From Actinomycetota bacterium (GTDB lineage Bacteria; Actinomycetota; Actinomycetes; Nanopelagicales; Nanopelagicaceae), in the NCBI GenBank assembly GCA_016870455.1, contig VGBN01000010.1, positions 1 to 38,433 on the forward strand: a DNA stretch of 38,433 nt, in the 5' to 3' direction. The notes under the pieces were generated by a model that saw only the letters and a list, made by a program, of their open reading frames with translations, was not told the origin of the DNA and ran no database searches. This document shows positions 164 to 16,781 of this stretch, one piece after another (position 1 is the stretch's first letter; each line of letters opens with the position of its first letter). The position numbers and the translations under genes were made by a program.

Positions 164-1387
164 GTGGAGCACAGTTTTAGCAGTAAGGTAATTGAAAGTA
201 GTTTCAAGGGTTTTCCGATAGATTCTTATGGGAAGACCCTTGCGGCATTTTTAGCCACAAAACCAAATTTATTCACCGCAAATTTTCAATTTCCAATCAT
301 GGTTGTAAATGAGGCAGCCCTTAAAAACAATATTGATCGGATGGCTAGTTACTGCAAATCAGTGGGTGCTGAGCTTGCTCCTCATGTTAAAACCACCATG
401 TCACCACAGATTGCCCAAATGCAAACTAATGCCGGCGCATACGCCTTAACCATTGCCAACTTCTGGCAGGCCAGCATATTTCTAGGCTTTGGCTTTAAGA
501 AATTGATTATTGCCAATGAGGTATTAGACCCATCAGCCATCGCTGAGATCTCTCACCTTAATAGAGATAAAGTTGCTGAAATTATTTTTTATGTTGACTC
601 ATTAGCAGGTTTAGAGATTGTTAAAAACCACACGCTAGCGGCCGGTGAGCAAAATCTGTTTATTGAGATTGGTACCGATGAGGGTCGGGGTGGAGTGAGA
701 GATTTATCTGAGGTAGAAAAAATTGCAAAAGCCATCGCAGCAGATAGCAGATTAAAACTACGAGGTGTTACTGGTTTTGAGGGTGCGGTACCAGCTGCTG
801 CTAGAAGCAAAAAAGGTGAGAAGAGATTGGCTGCATTTTGTCAAAAGATTGTGGCCGCAGCTGATCGGGCTTATCCATATAAGGCGGATGGAGTATTTAT
901 TATCTCGGCCGGGGGTAGCGCTTACTTTGAGATTGTGGCAGAGGAGTTAAATAAGTTTGGCAAAGAGAGGATTTTATTATTGCGCAGCGGTGGATATGTA
1001 ACCCATGACAGTAAGTATTATGAGGAGATATATCCATTTCGAGATTTAGATCAGAGGTTTAAGCCGGCAATTGAGGTCTGGGCTCAGATCATCAGCACAC
1101 CAGAGCCAAATTTTGGGGTGTTAAACCTGGGCAAACGCGATATTGGAAATGACCTACACAACCCCATTCCATTTGCCAAGTATGGATCTGGTTTAACCGC
1201 ATTTTCTGGTCAGATCGAGAAGCTAAATGATCAGCATGGTTACTTGAGAAGTAAGCAGGATTTTGCAGTATCACAGTTGATTGGATTGGGTATCTCTCAT
1301 CCCTGCACTACATTTGATAAATGGCGGTTAATTCCACTAGTCAACGACAATTATGATGTTGTAGATTGCTTGTATACATTCTTCTAA
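164..1387 (+). CDS. PLP-dependent amino acid deaminase / D-threonine aldolase-like (fold type III, DSD family)
   Basis: GTG start; PHVKTTMSPQ PLP-lysine motif and C-terminal SHPCTTFDKWR metal-binding-like motif typical of D-serine deaminase-like proteins. Confidence 0.85.
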   Translation: MEHSFSSKVIESSFKGFPIDSYGKTLAAFLATKPNLFTANFQFPIMVVNEAALKNNIDRMASYCKSVGAELAPHVKTTMSPQIAQMQTNAGAYALTIANFWQASIFLGFGFKKLIIANEVLDPSAIAEISHLNRDKVAEIIFYVDSLAGLEIVKNHTLAAGEQNLFIEIGTDEGRGGVRDLSEVEKIAKAIAADSRLKLRGVTGFEGAVPAAARSKKGEKRLAAFCQKIVAAADRAYPYKADGVFIISAGGSAYFEIVAEELNKFGKERILLLRSGGYVTHDSKYYEEIYPFRDLDQRFKPAIEVWAQIISTPEPNFGVLNLGKRDIGNDLHNPIPFAKYGSGLTAFSGQIEKLNDQHGYLRSKQDFAVSQLIGLGISHPCTTFDKWRLIPLVNDNYDVVDCLYTFF

Positions 1388-1412
1388 TCCCAAATTAATT
1401 AAAGGAGATCTA

Positions 1413-1796
1413 ATGCCTATCGAACATATCAATGCCAGCCAAGCCCCCGCGCCAGGTGGTTCTTACTCTCATGGGGTGGTTGCTAATGGCTTCCTATACA
1501 CCTGCGGTATGGGTCCAGTTGACCCAGCAACTGGAAAGATTGTTGATGGTGGGGTGGCTGAGCAAACTAGGCAGACTTTAAAGAACTTGCAAAAGATTTT
1601 GGATGTCAAGGGTGCAAAGTTTGCAGATGTAGTTAAGGTGACTGCTCACCTGCAAGATGTTAACCGAGATTTTGCTGCTTACGATCAGGTTTATCGGGAG
1701 TTTTTCTCTGCCCCTTTTCCAGTCCGTACCACAGTTGGTTCAGATTTAATTAACATTTTAGTTGAAATTGATTTTGTAGTAGCGCTTCCAAATTAA
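1413..1796 (+). CDS. RidA family (YjgF/UK114) enamine/imine deaminase
   Basis: RidA-like sequence (APAPGGSYSHGVVANGFLYTCGMGPVDPATG...); AAAGGAGAT ribosome-binding site upstream. Confidence 0.9.
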   Translation: MPIEHINASQAPAPGGSYSHGVVANGFLYTCGMGPVDPATGKIVDGGVAEQTRQTLKNLQKILDVKGAKFADVVKVTAHLQDVNRDFAAYDQVYREFFSAPFPVRTTVGSDLINILVEIDFVVALPN

Positions 1797-1800
1797 TCCT

Positions 1801-2598
1801 ATGACAATTGCACAAGATTTAGCTGGCAAGGTAGTGGTAGTTACTGGTGCTGGCCGCGGAATTGGACGCCAGATTGCAATCGGGGCAGGGCAAAGAGGTG
1901 CAAAGGTCGCAGTAGTTGAAGTAATTGCCGAAAATCTAGAGTCAACAGTTAAAGAGATCTCTGCGCTGGGAATAACGGCAGAGGGTTATCAAACTGATAT
2001 TTCCTCAGAGAGTCAGATTATTAAGAGTTTTGCTGCGATTGAAAAGGATTTTGGACAGATTGATTGCTTAGTAAATAATGCCATGATTCATGATCCTGAA
2101 GATCTACTGGCCACCTCACTTGAGGTTTGGAATCGCACTCTTGCTGTGACCTTAACCGGCAGTTTTTTAACTATAAAAGCCACCTTGCCCGGGATGATTA
2201 AGCGTAAATCTGGCTGCATCGTAAATATTGGCACCGTTAATGCCAAGGCGATGATTGGCAGTGACTCCTACTCAGTTGCCAAGGCAGGCATCCATGCGCT
2301 TACTAGAACAGTTGCCGTTAGATATGGTCCAGATGGAATTCGCTGCACAACGGTGGTGCCAGGAACTATTGCAACCGACGCTTGGCAGGCCAGGGTTGAT
2401 AGAAATCCACAAATTTTTGAAAAGTTAAAACCTTGGTATCCTCTAGGACGAGTCGGTACGCCAGTAGATGTTACGGAGGCGGTTTTGTTTTTACTTTCAG
2501 ATAAGGCGCAGTGGATTAGTGGCAGTGAGTTTGTAGTAGATGGTGGACTATTAGCTGGTTATGCCCCGATGTTTAAAATGGTTGAAGGTTCTGATTAA
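1801..2598 (+). CDS. SDR family NAD(P)-dependent oxidoreductase
   Basis: TGAGRGIGRQIA Rossmann motif, NNAMIHD, S-Y-x3-K (SYSVAKAG), C-terminal SGSEFVVDGG. Confidence 0.92.
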   Translation: MTIAQDLAGKVVVVTGAGRGIGRQIAIGAGQRGAKVAVVEVIAENLESTVKEISALGITAEGYQTDISSESQIIKSFAAIEKDFGQIDCLVNNAMIHDPEDLLATSLEVWNRTLAVTLTGSFLTIKATLPGMIKRKSGCIVNIGTVNAKAMIGSDSYSVAKAGIHALTRTVAVRYGPDGIRCTTVVPGTIATDAWQARVDRNPQIFEKLKPWYPLGRVGTPVDVTEAVLFLLSDKAQWISGSEFVVDGGLLAGYAPMFKMVEGSD

Positions 2599-2603
2599 AT
2601 CAG

Positions 2604-4202
2604 ATGAGTGAAAATACCTTCACCATTCGTGGGGCAAATGTAATTGATGGTAGCGATACACCTGCACAGCGCCTGGATATTTTAATTACAAATGGGGTTA
2701 TCTCACAGCTTGGTTCAATCTTGAGAGGTGCTGAAGAGGGCAAAGTTATTGATGGCTCTGGTTTAACTTTAGCCCCGGGATTTATTGATATGCACTCGCA
2801 TTCAGATTTAGCAGTTTTGACCGATAAACAACATTTAGCAAAGGTCTCCCAAGGGGTAACTCTGGAGGTAGTTGGTCAGGATGGACTTAGCTATGTGCCA
2901 AGTAATCCTGAAACCTTGCTTGAGCTACGTGAACAATTATTTGGTTGGAACTCAGATCCAAAAGATTTGAAGTGGGACTTTCACACAGTGGGAGAGTATT
3001 TAGATCGAGTTGATAATGGTTGTGCCGTCAATGTTGCATACTTAATTCCACACGGCTCGGTGCGCATGTTGGTTAGAGGAAATGAGCCTGGAACTGCCTC
3101 TGATGATGAGTTGGCGGCGATGAAACAGTTGACCCGTAAGGCAATGCAGGAGGGTGCCTTTGGTTTATCAGCTGGGCTTACCTACACCCCTGCGATGTAT
3201 GCAGATAATGATGAAATTGTGCAGCTTTGCAAGGTTGTCGCAGGGTTTGGTGGCTTTTACGCCCCGCACCATCGAAATTATGGTGCTAAGTTTTTAGAGG
3301 CAGTTATGGAGTGTTTAGATATTGCTAAGTTATCTAAATCTCCACTTCACTTAACTCACTGTCATATGAGCCACCCAAATTTTCATGGCAAAACTGGCTT
3401 GCTATTTGAACAGATACAAAATGCTGAAAAACAAGGGGTGGATGTCACTCTAGATACCTACCCATACTTAGCTGGTTCAACCTATCTGCATGCACTGTTG
3501 CCTTCTTGGGTCCAGGCAGGTGGCTCAAAGAAAACTCTGCAGCGATTGTCTGTGATGGAAAATCGGTTGAAGGTTATTTATGAGTTAACTGTCTCTGGCA
3601 GCGATGGTAATCATGGTGGGGTAGTTAACTGGCCAGCCATTAATATTGCCGGAGTTGAGAAGTCTCATAATATGCGACTTGTCGGAATGGATTTAGTTTC
3701 AGCCGCCCAGCTGGTAAATAAAAAAGTTGAAGATTTTTATCTAGATTTTATTATTGATGAGGAACTCAAAGCCTCTTGTGTAATTTTTGCCGGACATGAA
3801 CCAAATGTTCGAGCAATTATGCAAGATTCTCGTCACATGGTGGGTAGTGATGGAATTTTGACTGGCAATAGACCACATCCACGTGGCTACGGAACTTTTG
3901 CCAGATATCTTGGTGTTTATGCCAGACAAGAAAAGGTTTTAACAATGCATGGTGCAGTTGCAAGGATGACTGGCAGACCAGCAAAACGTCTTGGATTAAC
4001 TGATCGCGGTTTTATTAAGGTCGGCATGAAAGCAGATATGGTTTTATTTGATTCTCAAACAGTGGTTGATCGATCAACATATGAGCAACCGCGAGTAGCA
4101 GCTGCTGGATTTGAAATGGTCTGGGTTAGTGGCGTGGCCACATTGCGCAAGGGGGCGCGAACTGAGGCAACCCCAGGGCAGGGAGTAAGAAAAGTAGTTT
4201 GA
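2604..4202 (+). CDS. N-acyl-D-amino-acid deacylase (D-aminoacylase, amidohydrolase superfamily)
   Basis: APGFIDMHSHSD metal motif, HLTHCHMS, GSDGILTGNRPHPRGYGTFARYLG; characteristic of D-aminoacylases. Confidence 0.9.
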   Translation: MSENTFTIRGANVIDGSDTPAQRLDILITNGVISQLGSILRGAEEGKVIDGSGLTLAPGFIDMHSHSDLAVLTDKQHLAKVSQGVTLEVVGQDGLSYVPSNPETLLELREQLFGWNSDPKDLKWDFHTVGEYLDRVDNGCAVNVAYLIPHGSVRMLVRGNEPGTASDDELAAMKQLTRKAMQEGAFGLSAGLTYTPAMYADNDEIVQLCKVVAGFGGFYAPHHRNYGAKFLEAVMECLDIAKLSKSPLHLTHCHMSHPNFHGKTGLLFEQIQNAEKQGVDVTLDTYPYLAGSTYLHALLPSWVQAGGSKKTLQRLSVMENRLKVIYELTVSGSDGNHGGVVNWPAINIAGVEKSHNMRLVGMDLVSAAQLVNKKVEDFYLDFIIDEELKASCVIFAGHEPNVRAIMQDSRHMVGSDGILTGNRPHPRGYGTFARYLGVYARQEKVLTMHGAVARMTGRPAKRLGLTDRGFIKVGMKADMVLFDSQTVVDRSTYEQPRVAAAGFEMVWVSGVATLRKGARTEATPGQGVRKVV

Positions 4203-4203
4203 G

Positions 4204-4219
4204 GGTCGCCGCTGCGACC
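4204..4219 (+). terminator. GC-rich hairpin directly after the deacylase stop codon (possible terminator or processing hairpin)
   Basis: GGTCGC-CGCT-GCGACC perfect 6-bp stem; only a short T run follows, so termination is uncertain. Confidence 0.35.
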
Positions 4220-4229
4220 TTTCGGGCCA

Positions 4230-4258
4230 TTGATACAAAAGTGTTATTTTTCCAATCT
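4230..4258 (+). promoter_or_regulatory. Candidate sigma70-like promoter for the solute-binding-protein gene
   Basis: TTGATA, 17-nt spacer, CAATCT; would leave a leader of about 70 nt ahead of the ATG at 4339. Confidence 0.3.
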
Positions 4259-4298
4259 AACCCCCCTTGCTTGTTTTTGAAATTAATGATGGGCTAAG

Positions 4299-4330
4299 CC
4301 TCCCCCACAAGCATGTGGGATCCTAGGAGG
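4299..4330 (+). promoter_or_regulatory. 5' leader hairpin overlapping the Shine-Dalgarno of the SBP gene
   Basis: CCTCC.CCCACA-AGCA-TGTGGG.atccta.GGAGG: perfect 6-bp hairpin with flanking CCTCC complementary to the SD GGAGG. Confidence 0.5.
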
Positions 4331-4338
4331 ACTAATAA

Positions 4339-5583
4339 ATGAAAAAACTAACCAAGCGCAGAATTGTTGCGCTGGCTTCACTTGGAATGGTGGCAAGCGT
4401 ATTAGTTGCTGCACCAGCTCAAGCTAACACCGTAACAATTAAGGTTGTTACTCCTAATTACACAGATGCTATGCCGGCTTACTATGCCGACTTAAATGCC
4501 CGCTTTATGGCTGCTAACCCAACCATCAAAGTTGAGCATGAGAATCTAAGTTGGGATGACATCTTGGTTAAGGGTCGAACTTATATATCAACCAAGTCAT
4601 ATCCAGATGTATTGAACCTAAATACATTCTCTGAGTTTGCTGCTGAAGATTTACTGTATAAAACCAGTGATCTCTTCACTGAGGCAAAACTCTCTGACTT
4701 TGTTACCGCTTTCCGCGATAACTCAAAGTACAACGGAGTTGAGTATGCTGTTCCAGATTTGGCTTCAGCCCGTATGTTCTTTATTAATAAGGCTTTGTTC
4801 TATGGTGCAGGCAATACCAAGATCCCAACTACTTGGGCTGAGGTAACTGCTGCTGCCAAGAAGATCAAGGCTAAGTACGGATCAAGAGTTTATCCATTGG
4901 CTATCCCACTAGGTTCAGAGGAAGCTCAAGCTGAGTTCCAGATCTGGGCAGGTGGAAATGGTGGTCGTTACTTCAATGAGAGTACAAAGAAGTGGGTCAT
5001 CAACTCTAAGGAAAACCTAGAGACTCTTAATCAATTAAGAGCATGGGTAAAGGCTGGTTACACACAACCAAACCCAGCATCAACAAACCGTACTGATGCC
5101 TTTAAGCTATTTAGCCAAGGCAGAGTGGCAATGATCAATGCATCCGTGTTCTTCCCTTCAACATTGAAGGATTACAAGAGCAAGGTTGACTACGGTGTTG
5201 CGCCATTCCCATCTGCTAACGCAAGCAAGAAGCCAATCACACTTGGAGTCCAGGATTACTTCATGGCCTTCAAGAAGACTGGAAACAAGGATGCAGTTTC
5301 TAAGTATCTAAACTTCTTGTTTGAAGGCAAGAATTACGCTGGCTTCCTAAAGGCTGCCGGTGGATTTATCCCAGCAACTAAGTCAGCTTCAACTGAAGTG
5401 GATTCATCATTGCTTCCATTCATTGAGCAACTTCCAAATGCAATCTTCTACCCAGGAACACTAGGTTCTTGGGGTCCTGTCGTCGCTAAGATAACAACTC
5501 AAATCGGCACAGGTATTACCAAGAATCCAAAGACTGTTTTGGATTCTCTACAGAAGGATGCTGAAAAGGCTGGTACGAATTAA
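4339..5583 (+). CDS. ABC transporter extracellular solute-binding protein (family 1, sugar type)
   Basis: Sec-type signal peptide (MKKLTKRRIVALASLGMVASVLVAAPAQA), SBP-like body, permeases directly downstream. Confidence 0.9.
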   Translation: MKKLTKRRIVALASLGMVASVLVAAPAQANTVTIKVVTPNYTDAMPAYYADLNARFMAANPTIKVEHENLSWDDILVKGRTYISTKSYPDVLNLNTFSEFAAEDLLYKTSDLFTEAKLSDFVTAFRDNSKYNGVEYAVPDLASARMFFINKALFYGAGNTKIPTTWAEVTAAAKKIKAKYGSRVYPLAIPLGSEEAQAEFQIWAGGNGGRYFNESTKKWVINSKENLETLNQLRAWVKAGYTQPNPASTNRTDAFKLFSQGRVAMINASVFFPSTLKDYKSKVDYGVAPFPSANASKKPITLGVQDYFMAFKKTGNKDAVSKYLNFLFEGKNYAGFLKAAGGFIPATKSASTEVDSSLLPFIEQLPNAIFYPGTLGSWGPVVAKITTQIGTGITKNPKTVLDSLQKDAEKAGTN

Positions 5584-5614
5584 TTACTCTAAAAAGTAAT
5601 TAAAGGTTAGACCT

Positions 5615-5653
5615 ATAAGCGGGGTCGAGTGAGTAATCACCGATCCCGCTTAT
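5615..5653 (+). other. Strong intercistronic RNA hairpin between the SBP and permease genes
   Basis: ATAAGCGGGGTCG-(A)-GTGA-GTAA-TCAC-CGATCCCGCTTAT: 17-bp stem (one G-U, one bulged A) with a GNRA-type GUAA tetraloop, no poly-U tail. Confidence 0.7.
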
Positions 5654-5703
5654 AACACATTGAGTGGAATCAAAAGTTGATGGCTGGTTTGAAATGAGGA
5701 GCT

Positions 5704-6639
5704 TTGAGTAGCAAACTGCTAGTGAAGAGCGCGTCAACAAAAAGAAAGAGCTCTGTTGCAACTCATGATGTTTCTGTAGCAAGTGCCCTACCTTGGATTG
5801 GCCCCGCTTTACTCTTGATTATTTTGGTTGTTATTTGGCCGGTCGTTGAGTTAGTAAGAATTTCTTTCACCGACATCACAATTGCAGGTAGCTTGCTCGA
5901 TTTTCATGGTTTTGCAAATTATCGAGAGTTACTTGCAAATCCAGATTTATATCCAGTTGCCCGCAGGACTTTACTTTGGGTTTTTGGCATTGTGTTTTTC
6001 ACTGTGATTTTATCCTTACCTCTAGCTCAATTAATCAATCAAAACTTTCCAGGACGCAAGTACGTTCGTTGGGCATTAATCTTCCCTTGGGCAGCATCAG
6101 TGGTAATGACTTCTATGATTTGGACTTGGATTTTAGATGCCTACTCAGGTGAGTTTAATTTAACTCTTACCCAACTAGGTCTTATCGATGAGCCCGTGGA
6201 TTGGGTGAATAATCCCGGCAGTTCATTTTATGTTCTAATGGCAGTGGCTGTCTTCGTATCCATACCATTTACAACCTATGTACTTTTGGCAGGCTTGCAG
6301 TCGATCCCAAATGATATTGTCGAGGCTGCATCTGTTGATGGGGCAAGTCATTGGCAAACCTACCGACAAATAAAGTTTCCATTACTAAGAAATGCCTTGC
6401 TGATCGCAACAATCATTAATTTAATAAATGTGTTTAATTCTTTCCCAATTATCTGGATTATGACTCGCGGAGGACCAGGTTATGAGACTGACACCACCAC
6501 TACCTTTGCCTATAAGTTGGCTTTCATAGAATCAAACATGGGTCAATCAACCGCCCTGGGAGTATTTAATTTCATTGTTATTTTGTTAATAGTTAGTTTG
6601 TATCTAAAGCTAACCAAAGCTACTAGGACCGAGTTATGA
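5704..6639 (+). CDS. Sugar ABC transporter permease (MalF/UgpA type)
   Basis: TTG start after a GAGGAG RBS; multiple TM segments; EAA loop (EAASVDGASHWQTYRQIKFPLL). Confidence 0.9.
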   Translation: MSSKLLVKSASTKRKSSVATHDVSVASALPWIGPALLLIILVVIWPVVELVRISFTDITIAGSLLDFHGFANYRELLANPDLYPVARRTLLWVFGIVFFTVILSLPLAQLINQNFPGRKYVRWALIFPWAASVVMTSMIWTWILDAYSGEFNLTLTQLGLIDEPVDWVNNPGSSFYVLMAVAVFVSIPFTTYVLLAGLQSIPNDIVEAASVDGASHWQTYRQIKFPLLRNALLIATIINLINVFNSFPIIWIMTRGGPGYETDTTTTFAYKLAFIESNMGQSTALGVFNFIVILLIVSLYLKLTKATRTEL

Positions 6640-7478
6640 AAAGCACTAAAGCAAAAAAATTGACCGGTAAGAAGGTCGTAACTATTTCGGTCGCCTATTT
6701 GATTGCTTGGTTTTTCCTGTATCCATATATACACATGTTCTTAACTTCAGTGCGAACACATGAAGAGTTATACGCTTATCCAACCACCCACTTTCCTCAA
6801 GTTTGGCAGTGGCGAAATTACTTAGATTTATGGGATAACGCACCAATCGCAAATTACCTCAAATCAAGTTTAATTATCTCTATATCAGCAACAATTTTAG
6901 TTTTGCTCGTATCTTTACCTGCAGCCTACTTTTTAGCTAGATATCGATTTAGATTCAGAGGTGTGTTCTTACTATTAGTTCTTGCGACACAAATGTTTTC
7001 ACCAACTGCTTTAATCATCGGTATTTTTCGCGAGGTAGATTTCTTTAACTTACTTGATTCTTACTTAGCATTAATCATATTAAATGCTGGCTTTAATCTG
7101 GCTTTTTCTATCTGGCTACTAGCGGGATTTTTCTCCAGTATTCCAGCTGAGATAGAGGAAGCGGCGTTAATTGATGGTTGCAGCAGAGTGCAAGCACTGC
7201 GGAAAATTACCATCCCAGTTGCTTTGCCAGGTGTGGTCACTGCCATCATTTTCACCTTTGTCGCAGCTTGGAATGAATTTACAATTGCACTTACAATTAT
7301 TAGTTCAGTTGATAAGAAGCCACTTCCAGTTGGTTTGACTCAGTTTATTGGTCAGTACGATATTGCTTGGGAGTATTTGTTTGCTTCCACGATTATTGCC
7401 ATTATTCCAGTTGTAGTTCTCTTCATAGCTATCGAAAAGTATTTAGTGGGTGGGTTAACAGCCGGCAGCGTGAAATGA
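6636..7478 (+). CDS. Sugar ABC transporter permease (MalG/UgpE type)
   Basis: ATGA overlap with previous gene; EAA loop (EEAALIDGCSRVQALRKITIPVALPG). Confidence 0.92.
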   Translation: MKSTKAKKLTGKKVVTISVAYLIAWFFLYPYIHMFLTSVRTHEELYAYPTTHFPQVWQWRNYLDLWDNAPIANYLKSSLIISISATILVLLVSLPAAYFLARYRFRFRGVFLLLVLATQMFSPTALIIGIFREVDFFNLLDSYLALIILNAGFNLAFSIWLLAGFFSSIPAEIEEAALIDGCSRVQALRKITIPVALPGVVTAIIFTFVAAWNEFTIALTIISSVDKKPLPVGLTQFIGQYDIAWEYLFASTIIAIIPVVVLFIAIEKYLVGGLTAGSVK

Positions 7479-8677
7479 GTGGCATTAAATCCAACGCATT
7501 TACACTTGCTTACACATTTTTTAGAGAACCAGCAGAGAAAGTTATTCCTGAATTAAGAAGTTATGGGTTTTCTGGAATAAATTTAGCTCTTAATTATCAC
7601 AGCAGTCGTGATCTTTTGCTTCGTCAAGGACCGCAACTTGCGTATTTATCTGATGGATTTCATTACTATCAAGTTAATGATCAGGCGTACGAGCCAGGGG
7701 CGATCAAGCCAGAGCAAAAAGATCAACTTCCAACTAATCAAGTTTTGGATTCAGTGCTTAAAGTTGCCAAGGAGAATGATTTCGAAGTAAATGCCTGGGC
7801 TGTATATATGCATAACTCTGCAATTGGGATGGCTCATCCAGATTCAGTAGTTACAAATGCACTTGGAAATAAGTTTTTCTCAGAGCTCTGTCCTTCAAAC
7901 CCTGCCGTGGCTAAATATGCAGTAGGAATGAGTAAAGATTTAGCAAGTCGGGGGATTGATGGAATTAGAGCAGAGTCATTACATTTTCATGGAGCACGCC
8001 ATGGCGAACATCATGAGCGATTTTTTATTGAGTTAAGTCCAATTACTGAATTCTTGTTTGCATTATGTTTCTGCAATTATTGCAAGCAAAATTTTGAGGC
8101 GCGCAATGAAGATGTCGATAAGTTAATCTCAAAGGTTGCAAAATTACTTCTTTTAGTCTTTGAAGATAAGGATCCTTGGCTAGGTAAGCAATTGAATTTA
8201 TCAAACCTGGCTGAGGTTGCAGGTGAGCAAATCTTGAAATATCTCAAGTGTAGGGAAGAAGCAGTGACTAATCTTTATAGACAAATATCAGAGGTTACTA
8301 GCGGGGCCAAAATTAGCTTTAACTTTGTAGATCAAGCACCACTTCTAGACTTGAATTCACAGGATGCAATTTCAAATAGCTGGCAAGTGGGTATTGATAA
8401 TTCCCAAATAGTCCAGATCATAGATCGATACGAACCGTTGATCTATCGTCGCGAAAGTACTCAAGTAGCTAAACTTGCGGAAAACTATTTAAAGAACATT
8501 GCGCCTAATATCACAGCAATCCTTAGGCCTACTTATCCTGATTGCACTAGTGTCAATAATTTGTCTCAGAAAGTTGATTCTTTAGTTGGACTTGGCATAA
8601 GAGAAATAGATTTTTACCTTTTAGATACTATGCGTAAATCGGATTTAAATAATATAAAGAGCGTAATAACTAGCTAA
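7475..8677 (+). CDS. Uncharacterised TIM-barrel / glycosidase-like protein, no signal peptide
   Basis: ATG at 7475 overlaps the permease stop (ATGA), a better start than the ORF-track start; motifs CPSNPAVAKYAVG, GIDGIRAESLHFHGARHGEHHE and CFCNYCKQNF. Confidence 0.6.
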   Translation: MSGIKSNAFTLAYTFFREPAEKVIPELRSYGFSGINLALNYHSSRDLLLRQGPQLAYLSDGFHYYQVNDQAYEPGAIKPEQKDQLPTNQVLDSVLKVAKENDFEVNAWAVYMHNSAIGMAHPDSVVTNALGNKFFSELCPSNPAVAKYAVGMSKDLASRGIDGIRAESLHFHGARHGEHHERFFIELSPITEFLFALCFCNYCKQNFEARNEDVDKLISKVAKLLLLVFEDKDPWLGKQLNLSNLAEVAGEQILKYLKCREEAVTNLYRQISEVTSGAKISFNFVDQAPLLDLNSQDAISNSWQVGIDNSQIVQIIDRYEPLIYRRESTQVAKLAENYLKNIAPNITAILRPTYPDCTSVNNLSQKVDSLVGLGIREIDFYLLDTMRKSDLNNIKSVITS

Positions 8678-8713
8678 TTATTGTAGAACTATTCACTAGA
8701 TAGGGAGTGCACT

Positions 8714-9610
8714 ATGGAGCGTGGTGTTTACTCAGTATTGCAAACTCCGCTGGATGAAAGTGAGAATCTAAATCAAAGTGTTTTCAAGCGAGAAATAGAT
8801 TGGTTGATTGAATGTGGTGTAAAAGGATTAGTTTTAGCAATGGTTTCAGAGGTCATGCGATTTACGGCGCAAGAGCGCCGCTCTCAGTGGCAATCTGCAC
8901 TTAAATTGATTGACAAACGTGTTCCTTTAATCGTCAGCGTCGGTGGTGAAAGTACAGCAATTGCAGTTTCATTAGCAAAGTTAGCTCAGATCGATGGCGC
9001 AACAGCATTAATGGCTACACCTCCAGCATCATTTCCGGCCACCTCTTCAGAGATTTACCTTTATTACTCAGCAATAATCGAAGCAGCAGATATTCCACTT
9101 ATAGTTCAGGACGCAAGCAATTACATGGGTCAGCCCCTTGAACTTAAGCTATATGGCGATCTGATAAAAAAATACGGAACAGAAAGAGTTCAATTTAAGC
9201 CTGAAGCAAAGCCGGTTAAAGAACGGGCTATGGCATTACAGGAAATCGCCAACGGAAAAGCGAGGATTTTTGAAGGGCAAAGTGGCATAGATTTACTTGA
9301 TACTCATCCAATTGGAGTAGTTGGCACTATGCCAGGTAGTGAGATTCCCTGGGCGATAATAAAGCTTTGGGATGCGTTAGAGGCCAATGATCTAGATCGT
9401 GCTCAAGAGTTTCATCATCTAGTTACACAACTTGTTGCATTTCAACAAAATATAGATGGCTATGTTGCAGTTGAAAAATATTTATTGGTTAAGCAGGGAA
9501 TTTTTGAGTCAGAACGTCAACGTGGTCCAGTGAGAACAATTTTAAGTGCTGAGATCAAACATGAAATTGATCAAATATTTGAAAAGCTAGTTAAATTGGC
9601 TAATAACTGA
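8714..9610 (+). CDS. Dihydrodipicolinate synthase / N-acetylneuraminate lyase family protein, substrate unknown
   Basis: DHDPS-like barrel (GVKGLVLAMVSEVMRFTAQERR; VQFKPEA with Schiff-base-type Lys). Confidence 0.85.
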   Translation: MERGVYSVLQTPLDESENLNQSVFKREIDWLIECGVKGLVLAMVSEVMRFTAQERRSQWQSALKLIDKRVPLIVSVGGESTAIAVSLAKLAQIDGATALMATPPASFPATSSEIYLYYSAIIEAADIPLIVQDASNYMGQPLELKLYGDLIKKYGTERVQFKPEAKPVKERAMALQEIANGKARIFEGQSGIDLLDTHPIGVVGTMPGSEIPWAIIKLWDALEANDLDRAQEFHHLVTQLVAFQQNIDGYVAVEKYLLVKQGIFESERQRGPVRTILSAEIKHEIDQIFEKLVKLANN

Positions 9611-10495
9611 TTCATAGCTAATACCAATCAAGTCACAAGGCCTAGTGGTTGCGCTGGCAATTGCAGTTTCAATTGGGATACCAAGTGCTATTAGACGATT
9701 AATCGAATCACCCAAATTAGCTACTCCACCAGCTAATTTTCCATCAATACTTCTTGCTTGCCCATTTTTTGCCACTACATTGATATCTCCGAAAGTAAAA
9801 TTACCATCACCTAATCCGGCAGCAGCAACTGCATCATTTGTAATGATGAATCGGTCCATAATTTTTGGTAAGGTTTGCATGAGCAGGTCATCTGAAACAT
9901 GAACACCATCTGCAATCACTTGCACCATTACATCTTGTCGCTCAATTGCAACATCACTTAATCCTTGAGCGGGAGGTTTAGACATGCCATTAAATAAGTG
10001 GGTGACAGTTTTGGCACCAGCATCAAAACCTGCATTTGCCTCTGATTTAGTGGCGTTTGAGTGTCCAAGTGAGACGATGATTTCCTGCCCTACCAAATAT
10101 TTGATTAAATCTTTTGCGCCAGCAATCTCTGGCGCAAGGGTTACAAGCCTGACTGATCCAGCAGATAACAACGCCTTGAGGTGTTCTAAGTTTGGTGGAG
10201 TAATAAATTCTTTAGGATGAACACCAGCTTTTTCAGTTGAGATAAATGGGCCTTCAAGATGAATACCAAGAATTAAAGCTTCACCGGGCTTAGGTTCTTT
10301 GCGAACAGTTTCAATCAATTCAATACTTCTTACTGCAGATTGAAGAGAGGTAGTAATTATGGTTGGCAGATATCCTGCGACCTCATTTTTGAATAGCGAT
10401 CTACTCACTACTCTTACCTCATCAGGAGTTTTGGCGGAGAGTAAATCGACACCCCCATGTCCATTAACCTGAAGATCTATGTATTTAGGCTTCAT
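9587..10495 (-). CDS. nagA: N-acetylglucosamine-6-phosphate deacetylase
   Basis: DLQVNGHGGVD, GIHLEGPFIS, SLGHSNA, VTHLFNGMSK, ITNDAVAAAG motifs. Confidence 0.92.
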   Translation of the reverse strand: MKPKYIDLQVNGHGGVDLLSAKTPDEVRVVSRSLFKNEVAGYLPTIITTSLQSAVRSIELIETVRKEPKPGEALILGIHLEGPFISTEKAGVHPKEFITPPNLEHLKALLSAGSVRLVTLAPEIAGAKDLIKYLVGQEIIVSLGHSNATKSEANAGFDAGAKTVTHLFNGMSKPPAQGLSDVAIERQDVMVQVIADGVHVSDDLLMQTLPKIMDRFIITNDAVAAAGLGDGNFTFGDINVVAKNGQARSIDGKLAGGVANLGDSINRLIALGIPIETAIASATTRPCDLIGISYESVISQFN

Positions 10496-11439
10496 TGTTT
10501 ATCAGACCTATAAATTTTGATCATAGGGGAGTAAATACCAGCATCATCTTTGTTAGCTAATATTTTTGCACCCTCTAGTGGAGATTTATTTGGTTTATGG
10601 AGCATCATTCCACTTGCTTTTATTTTTGAAACTACATTTTTGTAAGTCATGGTGTTCTCCGCTAATACCCCACCAAGCAGAGCTACCTGAAAATCTTTCC
10701 CTCCTTCACACACACGTCGTGCAGTATCAGCAATTAAAACAATCTCATCTCCTGCCTTGTCAATAATCTCTAGCGCCGTAGCATTACCAGAGGCAGCAAG
10801 CTCATTTACTAACTGTGCAAATTGCGCAATTGCATGTACTGCCCGATTACTTTGATGAACAACGTGTGGTAAATGGTAAGGATCAGCATTAAAGTGTTGG
10901 CAGGCAACCGCAAGCAATTGGGCAGCTCCTGGTGTTTGATCACGCCCATCACTAGAACGCAAGGCATAATTTAAACCCATCCGGCCTATCCAATAAGCAC
11001 TAGCCACATCTCCAATTAAATGACCATCACCAGATAAAGAGTGCAAAATGGTGCCTGATTTACCAACAGCTAATGCAGTAATACCTGTGCCGGCAGTGAT
11101 TACTACCCCATCAGTTTCAATAGCAGCGGCGCAAGAGCTCACCGAATCACTACAGATCCACAGCTCCTCTACCTTGCTATTTTTGAAAACTAGATTTGCA
11201 ATACCTTGATAACTCTTGGTGTCGGCTGGCAAGGTAGCAACCGCAAGCACTGCCCGGGAGATACTTCCTTCAAACTGATTAGCAAAGGTTGTGACAACAT
11301 TTGCTAAGTAATCAACAAGGGAACCCTCGCCAGGAGTAATTCCAGGAAAATCTTTATAATTTTTTTCTATGCCGTCAACACCCGCAGCTGCGCGAATACC
11401 ACCACCGCCACCATCAAAGTAAATAACTGTCTTAGACAT
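10492..11439 (-). CDS. N-acetylglucosamine kinase-like protein (BadF/BadG/BcrA/BcrD ATPase family)
   Basis: YFDGGGGGIRAA phosphate-1-like motif, ITAGTGITALAVG, GDGHLIGDVASAYWIG. Confidence 0.85.
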   Translation of the reverse strand: MSKTVIYFDGGGGGIRAAAGVDGIEKNYKDFPGITPGEGSLVDYLANVVTTFANQFEGSISRAVLAVATLPADTKSYQGIANLVFKNSKVEELWICSDSVSSCAAAIETDGVVITAGTGITALAVGKSGTILHSLSGDGHLIGDVASAYWIGRMGLNYALRSSDGRDQTPGAAQLLAVACQHFNADPYHLPHVVHQSNRAVHAIAQFAQLVNELAASGNATALEIIDKAGDEIVLIADTARRVCEGGKDFQVALLGGVLAENTMTYKNVVSKIKASGMMLHKPNKSPLEGAKILANKDDAGIYSPMIKIYRSDKQ

Positions 11440-12452
11440 TAGTTAGTCAGTGTCACTTTACTCAGACCGGTAGGTCTATCTGGGTCCAATCCATTTTTCC
11501 TGGCAAATTCCAAAGCAAAGCGTTGCCCAATTATGCAATCGATAATGCAGTTATGGATTTCATTTCCAGTTTTTGCACCCTCGATCACAATCTCACCAGG
11601 CACTACTAAAGAGTTGGTGCCAATCCAATAAATCTTTGGAGATCTACTTCTGATTTGCGTCATGTAATCTTTTACAAAGCTTAGATCTGAGTCATTTTGA
11701 GCTACTAAAAATAATTGCGTTTTTGAAGTTAGTGCTGAAATAGGTCCATGCATATAATCGGCGATTGATAAGCCCTGCACAGGGATTTTACTGGTTTCTT
11801 GAATTTTTAATGCAAACTCTTTTGCATTGGGATATGAAAACCCTCGACCAAGAACAACGATTTCATTTTGAGGATTAACTGAGTCAACTGCACTAGAAAC
11901 AAGATTTTTATCTGAGACTAATAACTTTGCTTGGGTGACTATCGAGTCGGCAGTTGTTTTTTGATTTAGCCAGCCATCAACAAGAATTAGTGAACATAGA
12001 AGTTCAGCTGCGTAGCTCTTAGTGGCAGCTACAGCATTCTCTTTACCTGCTAGTAATGACAGGTGCAGATCTGCTGACTTGGCTAATGGCGAAAGCTCAT
12101 CATTTGTCATTGCTATCAAAAATCCACCACCGGCCTTGGCGGCCTTTGAGAACTTGATTAAATCAGAGGACTGCCCGCTTTGCGATATGGCTATAACTAG
12201 CGTGTTATCAAATTTCAATTGGGTGTCATAAATAGTAACTGAGGAAAGAGAGGTAAGACCAACTGGTAGACCGATTTTGGTTTCGATTAAGTACTTAAGA
12301 AAGTGAGCAGCATTGTCGGAGGTGCCACGGCCTAAAATTTGGACTGAATTAAAATCATGTTTCGTGAAAACATCATGCAATTTATCAAACTGATTTGAAT
12401 TGTCCAGAATTGTTTGAAATACCTCAGGAATTTGGGAGATCTCTGATTCCAT
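11439..12452 (-). CDS. SIS-domain protein, probable type II glucosamine-6-phosphate deaminase (NagB-II/GlmS isomerase-like)
   Basis: Two SIS domains (LGRGTSDNAAHFLKYLIE; AISQSGQSSDLI; VLGRGFSYPNAKEFALKIQET); start proposed at the internal ATG giving MESEISQIPEVF. Confidence 0.82.
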   Translation of the reverse strand: MESEISQIPEVFQTILDNSNQFDKLHDVFTKHDFNSVQILGRGTSDNAAHFLKYLIETKIGLPVGLTSLSSVTIYDTQLKFDNTLVIAISQSGQSSDLIKFSKAAKAGGGFLIAMTNDELSPLAKSADLHLSLLAGKENAVAATKSYAAELLCSLILVDGWLNQKTTADSIVTQAKLLVSDKNLVSSAVDSVNPQNEIVVLGRGFSYPNAKEFALKIQETSKIPVQGLSIADYMHGPISALTSKTQLFLVAQNDSDLSFVKDYMTQIRSRSPKIYWIGTNSLVVPGEIVIEGAKTGNEIHNCIIDCIIGQRFALEFARKNGLDPDRPTGLSKVTLTN

Positions 12453-12749
12453 TGATATACCTAAACTGGGCATGAGGTATTTTCGCATAAAACAAGTAGA
12501 TTGAGCCAAAATTTGGATTTCTTGAGCACCTAATCCGCTGTAATGGTTGTTTTTACCATGATTTCTAAGACTTCTCCATAGTCAAACGCTTTGTCCATGA
12601 CTCTTGAATTTATCAATGTTGAACTAGAAGCAATCTCATCTTTATTTCTAGCAAATTTAAATTTAGTCTCCTTCAAACTAGTTGCCAAGGACTATGTAAG
12701 GATTTAAACTAATCTAAACAACAAATTATTCTTCAAATTTAAGAGATGA

Positions 12750-16664: not shown

Positions 16665-16781
16665 GGTCACGAGTCTTAGTTCATAGCCCCGGCTAACTAA
16701 GCGGCAACCCTCCACCACGGTGGGGTGCTCCGGGTGAGGACCAGATCGATTGCAAGGTGTAATCGATAAGCGTGGGTCGAT
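16665..16781 (+). ncRNA. SAM riboswitch, SAM-IV type, upstream of metY
   Basis: GGTCACGAGT...AGCCCCGGCTAACTAAGCGGCAACCCTCCACCACGGTGGGGTGCTCCGGGTGAGGACC; P1 GGTC(16665-16668)/GACC(16739-16742); downstream hairpin ATCGATT/AATCGAT. Confidence 0.85.

Follow-up and report, generated by a model that had tools for sequence, protein, structure and literature searches.

What does a streamlined freshwater actinobacterium take up and degrade with a cluster of twelve genes in which enzymes of D-amino-acid type, a sugar-type importer and enzymes of N-acetylglucosamine (GlcNAc) catabolism stand together? The cluster lies at the start of contig VGBN01000010.1 of a Nanopelagicaceae genome (1.01 Mb, 82.6% complete), and the window analysed here is this entire contig of 38,433 bp. 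In fresh water, few bacteria are as abundant as the acI actinobacteria. The nearest named relative of the source organism, from the same genus, appears to be SCGC AAA027-J17, which was classed as acI-B1 in a published table (PMC5962901). Bacteria of the acI group take up GlcNAc in experiments, in keeping with the answer proposed below, and a genome-based acI network study failed to recover this uptake (PMC5574706). An initial annotation had grouped the twelve genes as one functional unit, fed by a sugar-type importer, and had suggested an amino-sugar conjugate or a peptidoglycan-derived N-acyl-D-amino acid as the substrate. All of its family assignments were borne out by family searches. The cluster is proposed here to be an actinobacterial, phosphate-free analogue of the marine ong pathway joined to an ordinary nag route. 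We put at about an even chance that it is a single unit for the catabolism of a sugar containing GlcNAc, with ong-like and nag routes; the more general claim of a single amino-sugar unit that leads to a 2-keto-3-deoxy acid is held with more confidence than that.

Conservation of the cluster and the proposed pathway

In the ong pathway, OngB deacetylates GlcNAc oxidised at C1 (GlcNAc1A), OngC turns the resulting glucosaminate into 2-keto-3-deoxygluconate (KDG) and ammonia, and OngD, a RidA protein of 127 aa, is genetically required; complete ong clusters were reported from Gammaproteobacteria and one Betaproteobacterium (PMC9537276). The core of this pathway, comprising a deacylase, a deaminase of the D-serine deaminase (DSD) type and RidA, is found together at window positions 164-4202. 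When the window proteins were compared with those of ong-like clusters recovered from Pseudoalteromonas piscicida (L144) and Vibrio (L145), the DSD-type enzyme was 28-30%, the deacylase 30-32% and RidA 33-34% identical over full or near-full length.

Gene linkage was followed through 150 relatives, with a deacylase threshold of E <= 1e-120. Within the window's family, its own genome counted, the gene for an unknown TIM-barrel protein occurs in 19 genomes, the deacylase gene in 19 and both in 18 (Fisher p ~4e-16, assuming 84 family genomes, an approximate count, and with genomes that are not phylogenetically independent). The two exceptions coincide with contig ends: one contig (G079) stops at the deacylase, so a true loss of the TIM-barrel gene was rejected, and in the other genome (G069) the TIM match reaches the contig end. 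The order dsd-ridA-sdr-deacylase, in which sdr encodes a short-chain dehydrogenase/reductase (SDR), is retained despite much rearrangement. In G049 the locus is rearranged and permease 2 is shortened. Outside the family, runs of deacylase, DSD, RidA and TIM genes occur in Planotetraspora, Microtetraspora and Streptosporangium, with partial versions in Planobispora, Actinomadura, Rubrobacter and Nitriliruptorales loci. Because the grouping recurs across many genera with rearrangements, the comparison argues for a real unit, as had been supposed, and not for chance.

The convergent nag genes (nagA, the kinase gene nagK and the SIS-domain gene sis) had been counted with the others, and the comparison bears this out through common neighbourhoods in other genera, often with a divergent intergenic region shared with dsd. 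The NagK-like kinase gene is present in just 5 of the 150 genomes and lies no more than ~5 kb from the deacylase gene in four of these five; the distance in the window is ~6.3 kb. At four loci (L062, L063, L068 and L070) sis-nagK-nagA diverges from dsd-ridA-sdr-deacylase over a short intergenic stretch, and in a distant actinobacterium (L106) SIS, nagA, major facilitator superfamily sugar transporter and ROK kinase genes adjoin an SDR-TIM-RidA-deacylase run. Kinase linkage, divergent neighbours and this distant locus together point to the nag half as part of the unit.

The contextual support from actinobacterial relatives is stronger than homology to the ong proteins. In Tsukamurella, genes for a DSD homologue and for a deacylase of 46% identity adjoin those for an annotated 2-keto-3-deoxy-6-phosphogluconate (KDPG) aldolase, a kinase best matched by KDG-kinase models, a gluconate:H+ symporter and RidA, and in Streptomyces-like genomes (G108, G145) the deacylase/DSD pair has a KDG-kinase-like gene and an IclR gene as neighbours. 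In Haloferax the TIM gene is accompanied by genes for an enolase-superfamily enzyme, SDR, RidA, Eda and KdgK1. By our reading, uronate-pathway genes, which also lead to KDG, adjoin three clusters of the genus g15. The cluster in the window has no KDG kinase gene (KdgK). A single PfkB gene lies elsewhere in the genome, and no KDPG aldolase was found in the 82.6% complete genome.

Read from gene content, conservation, linkage and homology, the pathway would run as follows. The substrate-binding protein (SBP) and two permeases would import a GlcNAc disaccharide, most likely chitobiose or its C1-oxidised form GlcNAc-GlcNAc1A, which the TIM-barrel protein would hydrolyse in the cytoplasm. The GlcNAc half would pass through the kinase, NagA and NagB-II, assigned by homology, to fructose-6-phosphate. 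GlcNAc1A, whether it arrives as the oxidised half or arises when the SDR oxidises GlcNAc at C1, would lose its acetyl group to the D-aminoacylase-like enzyme and become glucosaminate. From this the DSD-type enzyme would then eliminate water, RidA would hydrolyse the enamine/imine to give ammonia and KDG, and an enzyme of the dihydrodipicolinate synthase (DHDPS) family would convert KDG to central metabolites. The SDR would either form the aldonic acid or work near KDG. That the compound actually imported is oxidised chitobiose is a tentative suggestion, somewhat unlikely on present evidence.

Component proteins and layout of the cluster

The deacylase is matched in the Protein Data Bank (PDB) by the D-aminoacylase 1m7j (226 bits) and by PpOngB, 9kb1 (186 bits). 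A residue map made against PpOngB (PMC12017989) showed that His64/His66, His222, His252, Asp416, Tyr194, Tyr286, Ser292 and Arg427 are kept. In the subtype V site of OngB, composed of Cys/His/His metal ligands and a catalytic Asp, Asp93 of the window protein replaces Cys97, with His222, His252 and Asp416 present; Lys254 becomes His254 and Gln298 falls in a gap, in a loop where the alignment is uncertain. The hydrophobic pocket of AfDam (Phe191/Met254) is absent. Thr193 and Ser256, at the columns of PpOngB Ala193/Ala256, instead make a small, polar pocket like that of PpOngB, in favour of the proposed substrate. Relatives in Tsukamurella, Arthrobacter and Streptosporangiaceae, and one from haloarchaea, share the metal-ligand Asp. 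Because Asp for Cys recurs across relatives and OngB residues are changed, the alignment places the deacylase in a separate subfamily, outside OngB by published residue criteria. It may work like OngB and is proposed to be an N-acetyl-aldonate deacetylase, a substrate that we can only infer because the enzyme departs from canonical OngB residues.

The DSD-like enzyme has the D-serine deaminase 3gwq as its best PDB match (full length, 170 bits). It is 27-29% identical over its full length to OngC-type proteins of Pseudoalteromonas and Vibrio, relative to which the SHPC motif is retained. Known enzymes of this fold act on 2-amino-3-hydroxy acids, a class that includes glucosaminate and excludes D-Ala and D-Glu. 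The homology suggests a 2-amino-2-deoxy-gluconate (GlcN1A) ammonia-lyase. The RidA protein is the counterpart of OngD and has the same length. The SDR gave generic family matches only, weak ones to glucose-1-dehydrogenase and L-rhamnose-1-dehydrogenase among them, and its role is uncertain: it may oxidise aldoses at C1 or catalyse a redox reaction close to KDG. G032 has a further, divergent run of DSD, deacylase and SDR genes (28-35%) at L163 9633-13287, adjoining MlrC-like and Gfo/Idh-like genes, as a paralogous pathway.

The start of the TIM-barrel gene was corrected from the listed 7367, which is too early, to the ATG at 7475, from where it shares 4 bp with the end of the permease 2 gene. 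The protein matched no Pfam, NCBIfam or GH (glycoside hydrolase) family profile and no entry in a PDB sequence search, and no relatives were found in viral contigs; relatives gave sub-threshold GHL10 matches. An AlphaFold model built with 38 relatives (pLDDT 94, pTM 0.92) has a predicted GH-like TIM-barrel fold, for which Foldseek ranked the C-terminal domain of PgaB (4p7o, GH153) best (E 1e-9, TM 0.60), followed by GH42, GH14, GH156 and GH20. Invariant in the family are E167, with which a predicted strand (163-167) closes, and the motifs H176-G-x-H-H-E181 and C198-x-C-x-x-C203; loop 177-180 is poorly predicted. No secretion signal is evident, and neither GH3 nor GH20 was detectable in the genome, which is incomplete. 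We propose that the protein is a glycoside hydrolase that works inside the cell and belongs to a new family, cytoplasmic hydrolysis being suggested because of fold, context and the lack of a signal peptide.

In Rhizobium, haloarchaea and Alicyclobacillus the TIM family also has plasmid-borne members, annotated as 'hypothetical protein' inside sugar or sugar-acid clusters. There the expected position of the deacylase holds an AstE/AspA-like gene in Rhizobium and a creatininase gene in haloarchaea, which suggests that the deacylase is substituted by these enzymes in those lineages. A wider proposal, speculative and held with low confidence, is that the family (acI, Streptosporangiaceae, Rubrobacter, Rhizobium, haloarchaea and Alicyclobacillus) is a new GH family cleaving aldonic-acid-ended disaccharides intracellularly, each lineage coupling it with an amide hydrolase (D-aminoacylase, AstE-like or creatininase-like) and an enzyme forming 2-keto-3-deoxy acids (DSD-type or enolase-superfamily), both of them exchangeable. 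Kitasatospora/Streptomyces homologues, which may have another role, stand alone amid rhomboid, HerA-like and carbamoyltransferase genes (L113 9917-11071). In one genome (G006, L040 227-1422) the TIM gene is broken into two ORFs, a pseudogene or an assembly error.

The SBP matched sugar-binding proteins in the PDB, the chitin-oligosaccharide-binding NagB2 (7eho) among the weaker ones, and with its permeases it is of the CUT1 type, as expected of the sugar importer predicted earlier. The ATPase, which the cluster does not encode, is presumably a shared MsiK-type subunit. The DHDPS-family protein has L-2-keto-3-deoxyarabonate dehydratase (3fkk) as its best PDB match; since this and not NanA is the best match, a sialic-acid lyase was disfavoured. 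Its orthologues (57%) adjoin an IlvD/Edd-like dehydratase gene in the genus g9, and a sugar importer too in one case. Its proposed substrate is a 2-keto-3-deoxy sugar acid.

Among the nag proteins, the NagA-like enzyme scored 198 bits against TIGR00221, under the cut-off of 225.65, and covers profile positions 55-349 of 380; the missing N-terminal part may explain the score, and orthologues of 300-301 aa occur in the genus g15. The kinase matched human NAGK (2ch5) and a GlcNAc kinase that also takes N-acetylmuramic acid (MurNAc; 8zo3). The SIS protein matched glucosamine-6-phosphate deaminase 8eol (154 bits, with 3hba scoring almost the same) and is closest to demonstrated NagB-II; no NagB of the PF01182 type was found in the 82.6% complete genome. 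A MurQ or peptidoglycan reading of the SIS gene was rejected, the protein being NagB-II-like with no MurQ-type match among its matches. At one locus (L031 12948-13423, G051) a nagA remnant lies in two pieces (61% and 69%), the kinase and SIS genes are gone and the cluster is otherwise intact, which the sequence marks as recent decay.

The coordinates are collected in Table 1. Gaps of 4-25 bp separate the dsd-ridA-sdr-deacylase genes, the junctions from permease 1 through permease 2 to the TIM gene overlap by 4 bp, and the 3' ends of the opposed plus- and minus-strand runs share 24 bp. Because gaps of 136 and 120 bp flank the SBP gene, the plus-strand genes probably form at least two transcription units. 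The hairpin after the deacylase gene is a possible end of the first, and it was not among the terminator-scan calls. Promoter and terminator scans gave site numbers no higher than in shuffles, and no operator common to both halves was established. A palindrome, CCCACAAGCATGTGGG, at 4304-4319, just 5' of the SBP gene, is a possible operator. The contig starts inside a gene, positions 1-126 looking like the Cys-rich C-terminal end of a ribonucleotide-reductase-like protein. Downstream, a SAM-IV riboswitch (16665-16778, plus strand; Rfam RF00634, 105.8 bits), considered ordinary, lies directly 5' of genes for a pyridoxal-phosphate (PLP) enzyme of Cys/Met metabolism and an alpha/beta hydrolase (metY/metX-like).

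Table 1. Features of the cluster, in window coordinates.
Feature	Position	Strand	Details
DSD/D-threonine-aldolase-fold PLP enzyme	164..1387	+	407 aa; PF14031 + PF01168
RidA family enamine/imine deaminase	1413..1796	+	127 aa; PF01042 E 1e-29
SDR oxidoreductase	1801..2598	+	265 aa; PF13561
D-aminoacylase-like amidohydrolase (deacylase)	2604..4202	+	532 aa; PDB 1m7j, 9kb1 matches
GC-rich hairpin then TTT, directly 3' of deacylase stop	4203..4221	+	sequence
Sugar-type (CUT1) SBP	4339..5583	+	PF01547
14-bp hairpin separating SBP and permease genes	5614..5654	+	sequence
ABC permease 1	5704..6639	+	PF00528
ABC permease 2	6636..7478	+	PF00528
Unknown TIM-barrel protein	7475..8677	+	400 aa; no Pfam or NCBIfam match
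DHDPS-family lyase/dehydratase	8714..9610	+	298 aa; PF00701
NagA-like GlcNAc-6-phosphate deacetylase, short form	9587..10495	-	TIGR00221
NagK/MurK-type GlcNAc kinase (BadF/BcrAD fold)	10492..11439	-	PF01869
SIS-domain glucosamine-6-phosphate deaminase, NagB-II type	11439..12509	-	PF01380

Weighing of alternative substrates and roles

Several observations weigh against the proposed pathway. By sequence alone the deacylase is nearer D-aminoacylase than OngB, positions at which OngB and the D-aminoacylases alike are invariant are altered (Cys97 to Asp93, Lys254 to His254), and Gln298 of OngB lacks a counterpart; the DSD-like enzyme is likewise no more than 27-29% identical to OngC-type proteins. 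The step of the SDR is not fixed, the TIM family has no known activity, and its Kitasatospora branch is isolated from cluster genes. Clusters of the genus g9 (L034-L037, and L066 from the acI-C1 strain IMCC26077) have no nearby DSD gene, and the nag half is decayed or absent in close relatives (G011, G051; L031, L032). The g9 clusters carry a second RidA gene, an extra SDR gene and an enolase-superfamily gene by the SBP gene; a replacement of the deaminating enzyme there is possible. The version in IMCC26077, whose genome is complete, comprises TIM, importer and deacylase genes.

The same unit might instead depend on hydrolytic import only, with neutral GlcNAc oligosaccharides taken in, GlcNAc released by the TIM-barrel protein and part of it oxidised to GlcNAc1A by the SDR as an aldose 1-dehydrogenase, giving two parallel GlcNAc routes and no product of a lytic polysaccharide monooxygenase (LPMO). 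The SDR gene does lie inside the dsd-ridA-sdr-deacylase run of the family's clusters, acid-importing relatives (ong with its symporter, Tsukamurella with gluconate:H+ symporter) have no SDR between those genes, and the weak dehydrogenase matches fit. Those matches are generic, however, the cluster has no lactonase and a streamlined genome would hardly be expected to keep two redundant routes for a single compound; this version is unlikely. The plus-strand genes might also degrade an N-acyl-D-3-hydroxyamino acid (N-acetyl-D-serine or -threonine) or a glycoside of it, not a sugar acid. The nearest solved relatives of the two central enzymes, D-aminoacylases and D-serine deaminase, would suit such a substrate, but the KDG-kinase and KDPG-aldolase neighbours in relatives, the sugar-type importer, the GH-like barrel, the nag linkage and the sugar-acid dehydratase genes beside DHDPS orthologues would not; we regard it as decidedly improbable.

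The two remaining alternatives are each very improbable. Peptidoglycan recycling, with uptake of GlcNAc-MurNAc or muropeptides and release of D-amino acids by the deacylase, recalls the resemblance of the kinase to 8zo3 and the D-aminoacylase homology. The importer is nevertheless of the CUT1 sugar type and not the peptide type, D-Ala and D-Glu are unsuited to DSD chemistry and the SIS protein is NagB-II-like without a MurQ match. The peptidoglycan half of the substrate suggested in the initial annotation is accordingly not supported, and its amino-sugar half is probably right. Two unrelated operons that are neighbours by accident would fit relatives in which the nag half is missing or decayed (L031, L032), but not its linkage in two different arrangements and in one distant lineage. 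A glycosaminoglycan substrate was disfavoured, since it leaves the deacylase and the DSD-like enzyme without a job.

The pathway proposed here, an ong-type core beside a nag route, would give GlcNAc uptake by acI bacteria a candidate importer and two routes. If true, oxidative amino-sugar catabolism extends past the mainly gammaproteobacterial ong clusters, and a widespread TIM family, mostly annotated as 'hypothetical protein', becomes a candidate new glycoside hydrolase family.

Relation to known systems

The nag half resembles the GlcNAc catabolism of NagA, NagB-II and NagK as a three-enzyme operon by homology, but its NagA is short, lacking the first ~54 profile positions, and its kinase is of the BadF type instead of ROK. 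The TIM-barrel protein shares a predicted fold and an invariant Glu at a barrel-strand end with the PgaB C-terminal domain (GH153) and GHL10-type barrels; identity in the structural alignment is ~10%, and the window protein is intracellular and single-domain, with no significant family match. The deacylase, ~32% identical to the P. piscicida OngB orthologue, is like PpOngB (9kb1, PMC12017989) in its catalytic Asp, two His metal ligands, HxH motif, carboxylate-binding Arg and small or polar pocket, and differs in having Asp for the Cys ligand, His for Lys254 and no Gln298 counterpart.

A literature search for glucosaminate together with D-aminoacylase found nothing, and the partial literature covered held no description of an actinobacterial version of ong with these parts. 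The earlier statement that the combination was undescribed does not hold for deacylase, DSD-type deaminase and RidA, which are the ong core (PMC9537276); it does hold for this core joined with an SDR, an ATP-binding cassette (ABC) importer, a GH-like barrel and an adjoining nag operon. The likeness to the ong cluster of Pseudoalteromonas prydzensis (PMC9537276) consists of the deacylase, the DSD-type deaminase, a RidA of 127 aa and the predicted product KDG. Around these, the window has an ABC importer where ong has the SSS-family symporter OngIT, a GH-like barrel where ong has the periplasmic GH20 enzyme OngA, of a family not detectable in this incomplete genome, and an SDR and a DHDPS-family enzyme where ong has KDG kinase. 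It lacks the RpiR-type regulator OngR and has the adjoining nag operon, and it comes from Actinobacteria, whereas the ong clusters are mainly those of Gammaproteobacteria.

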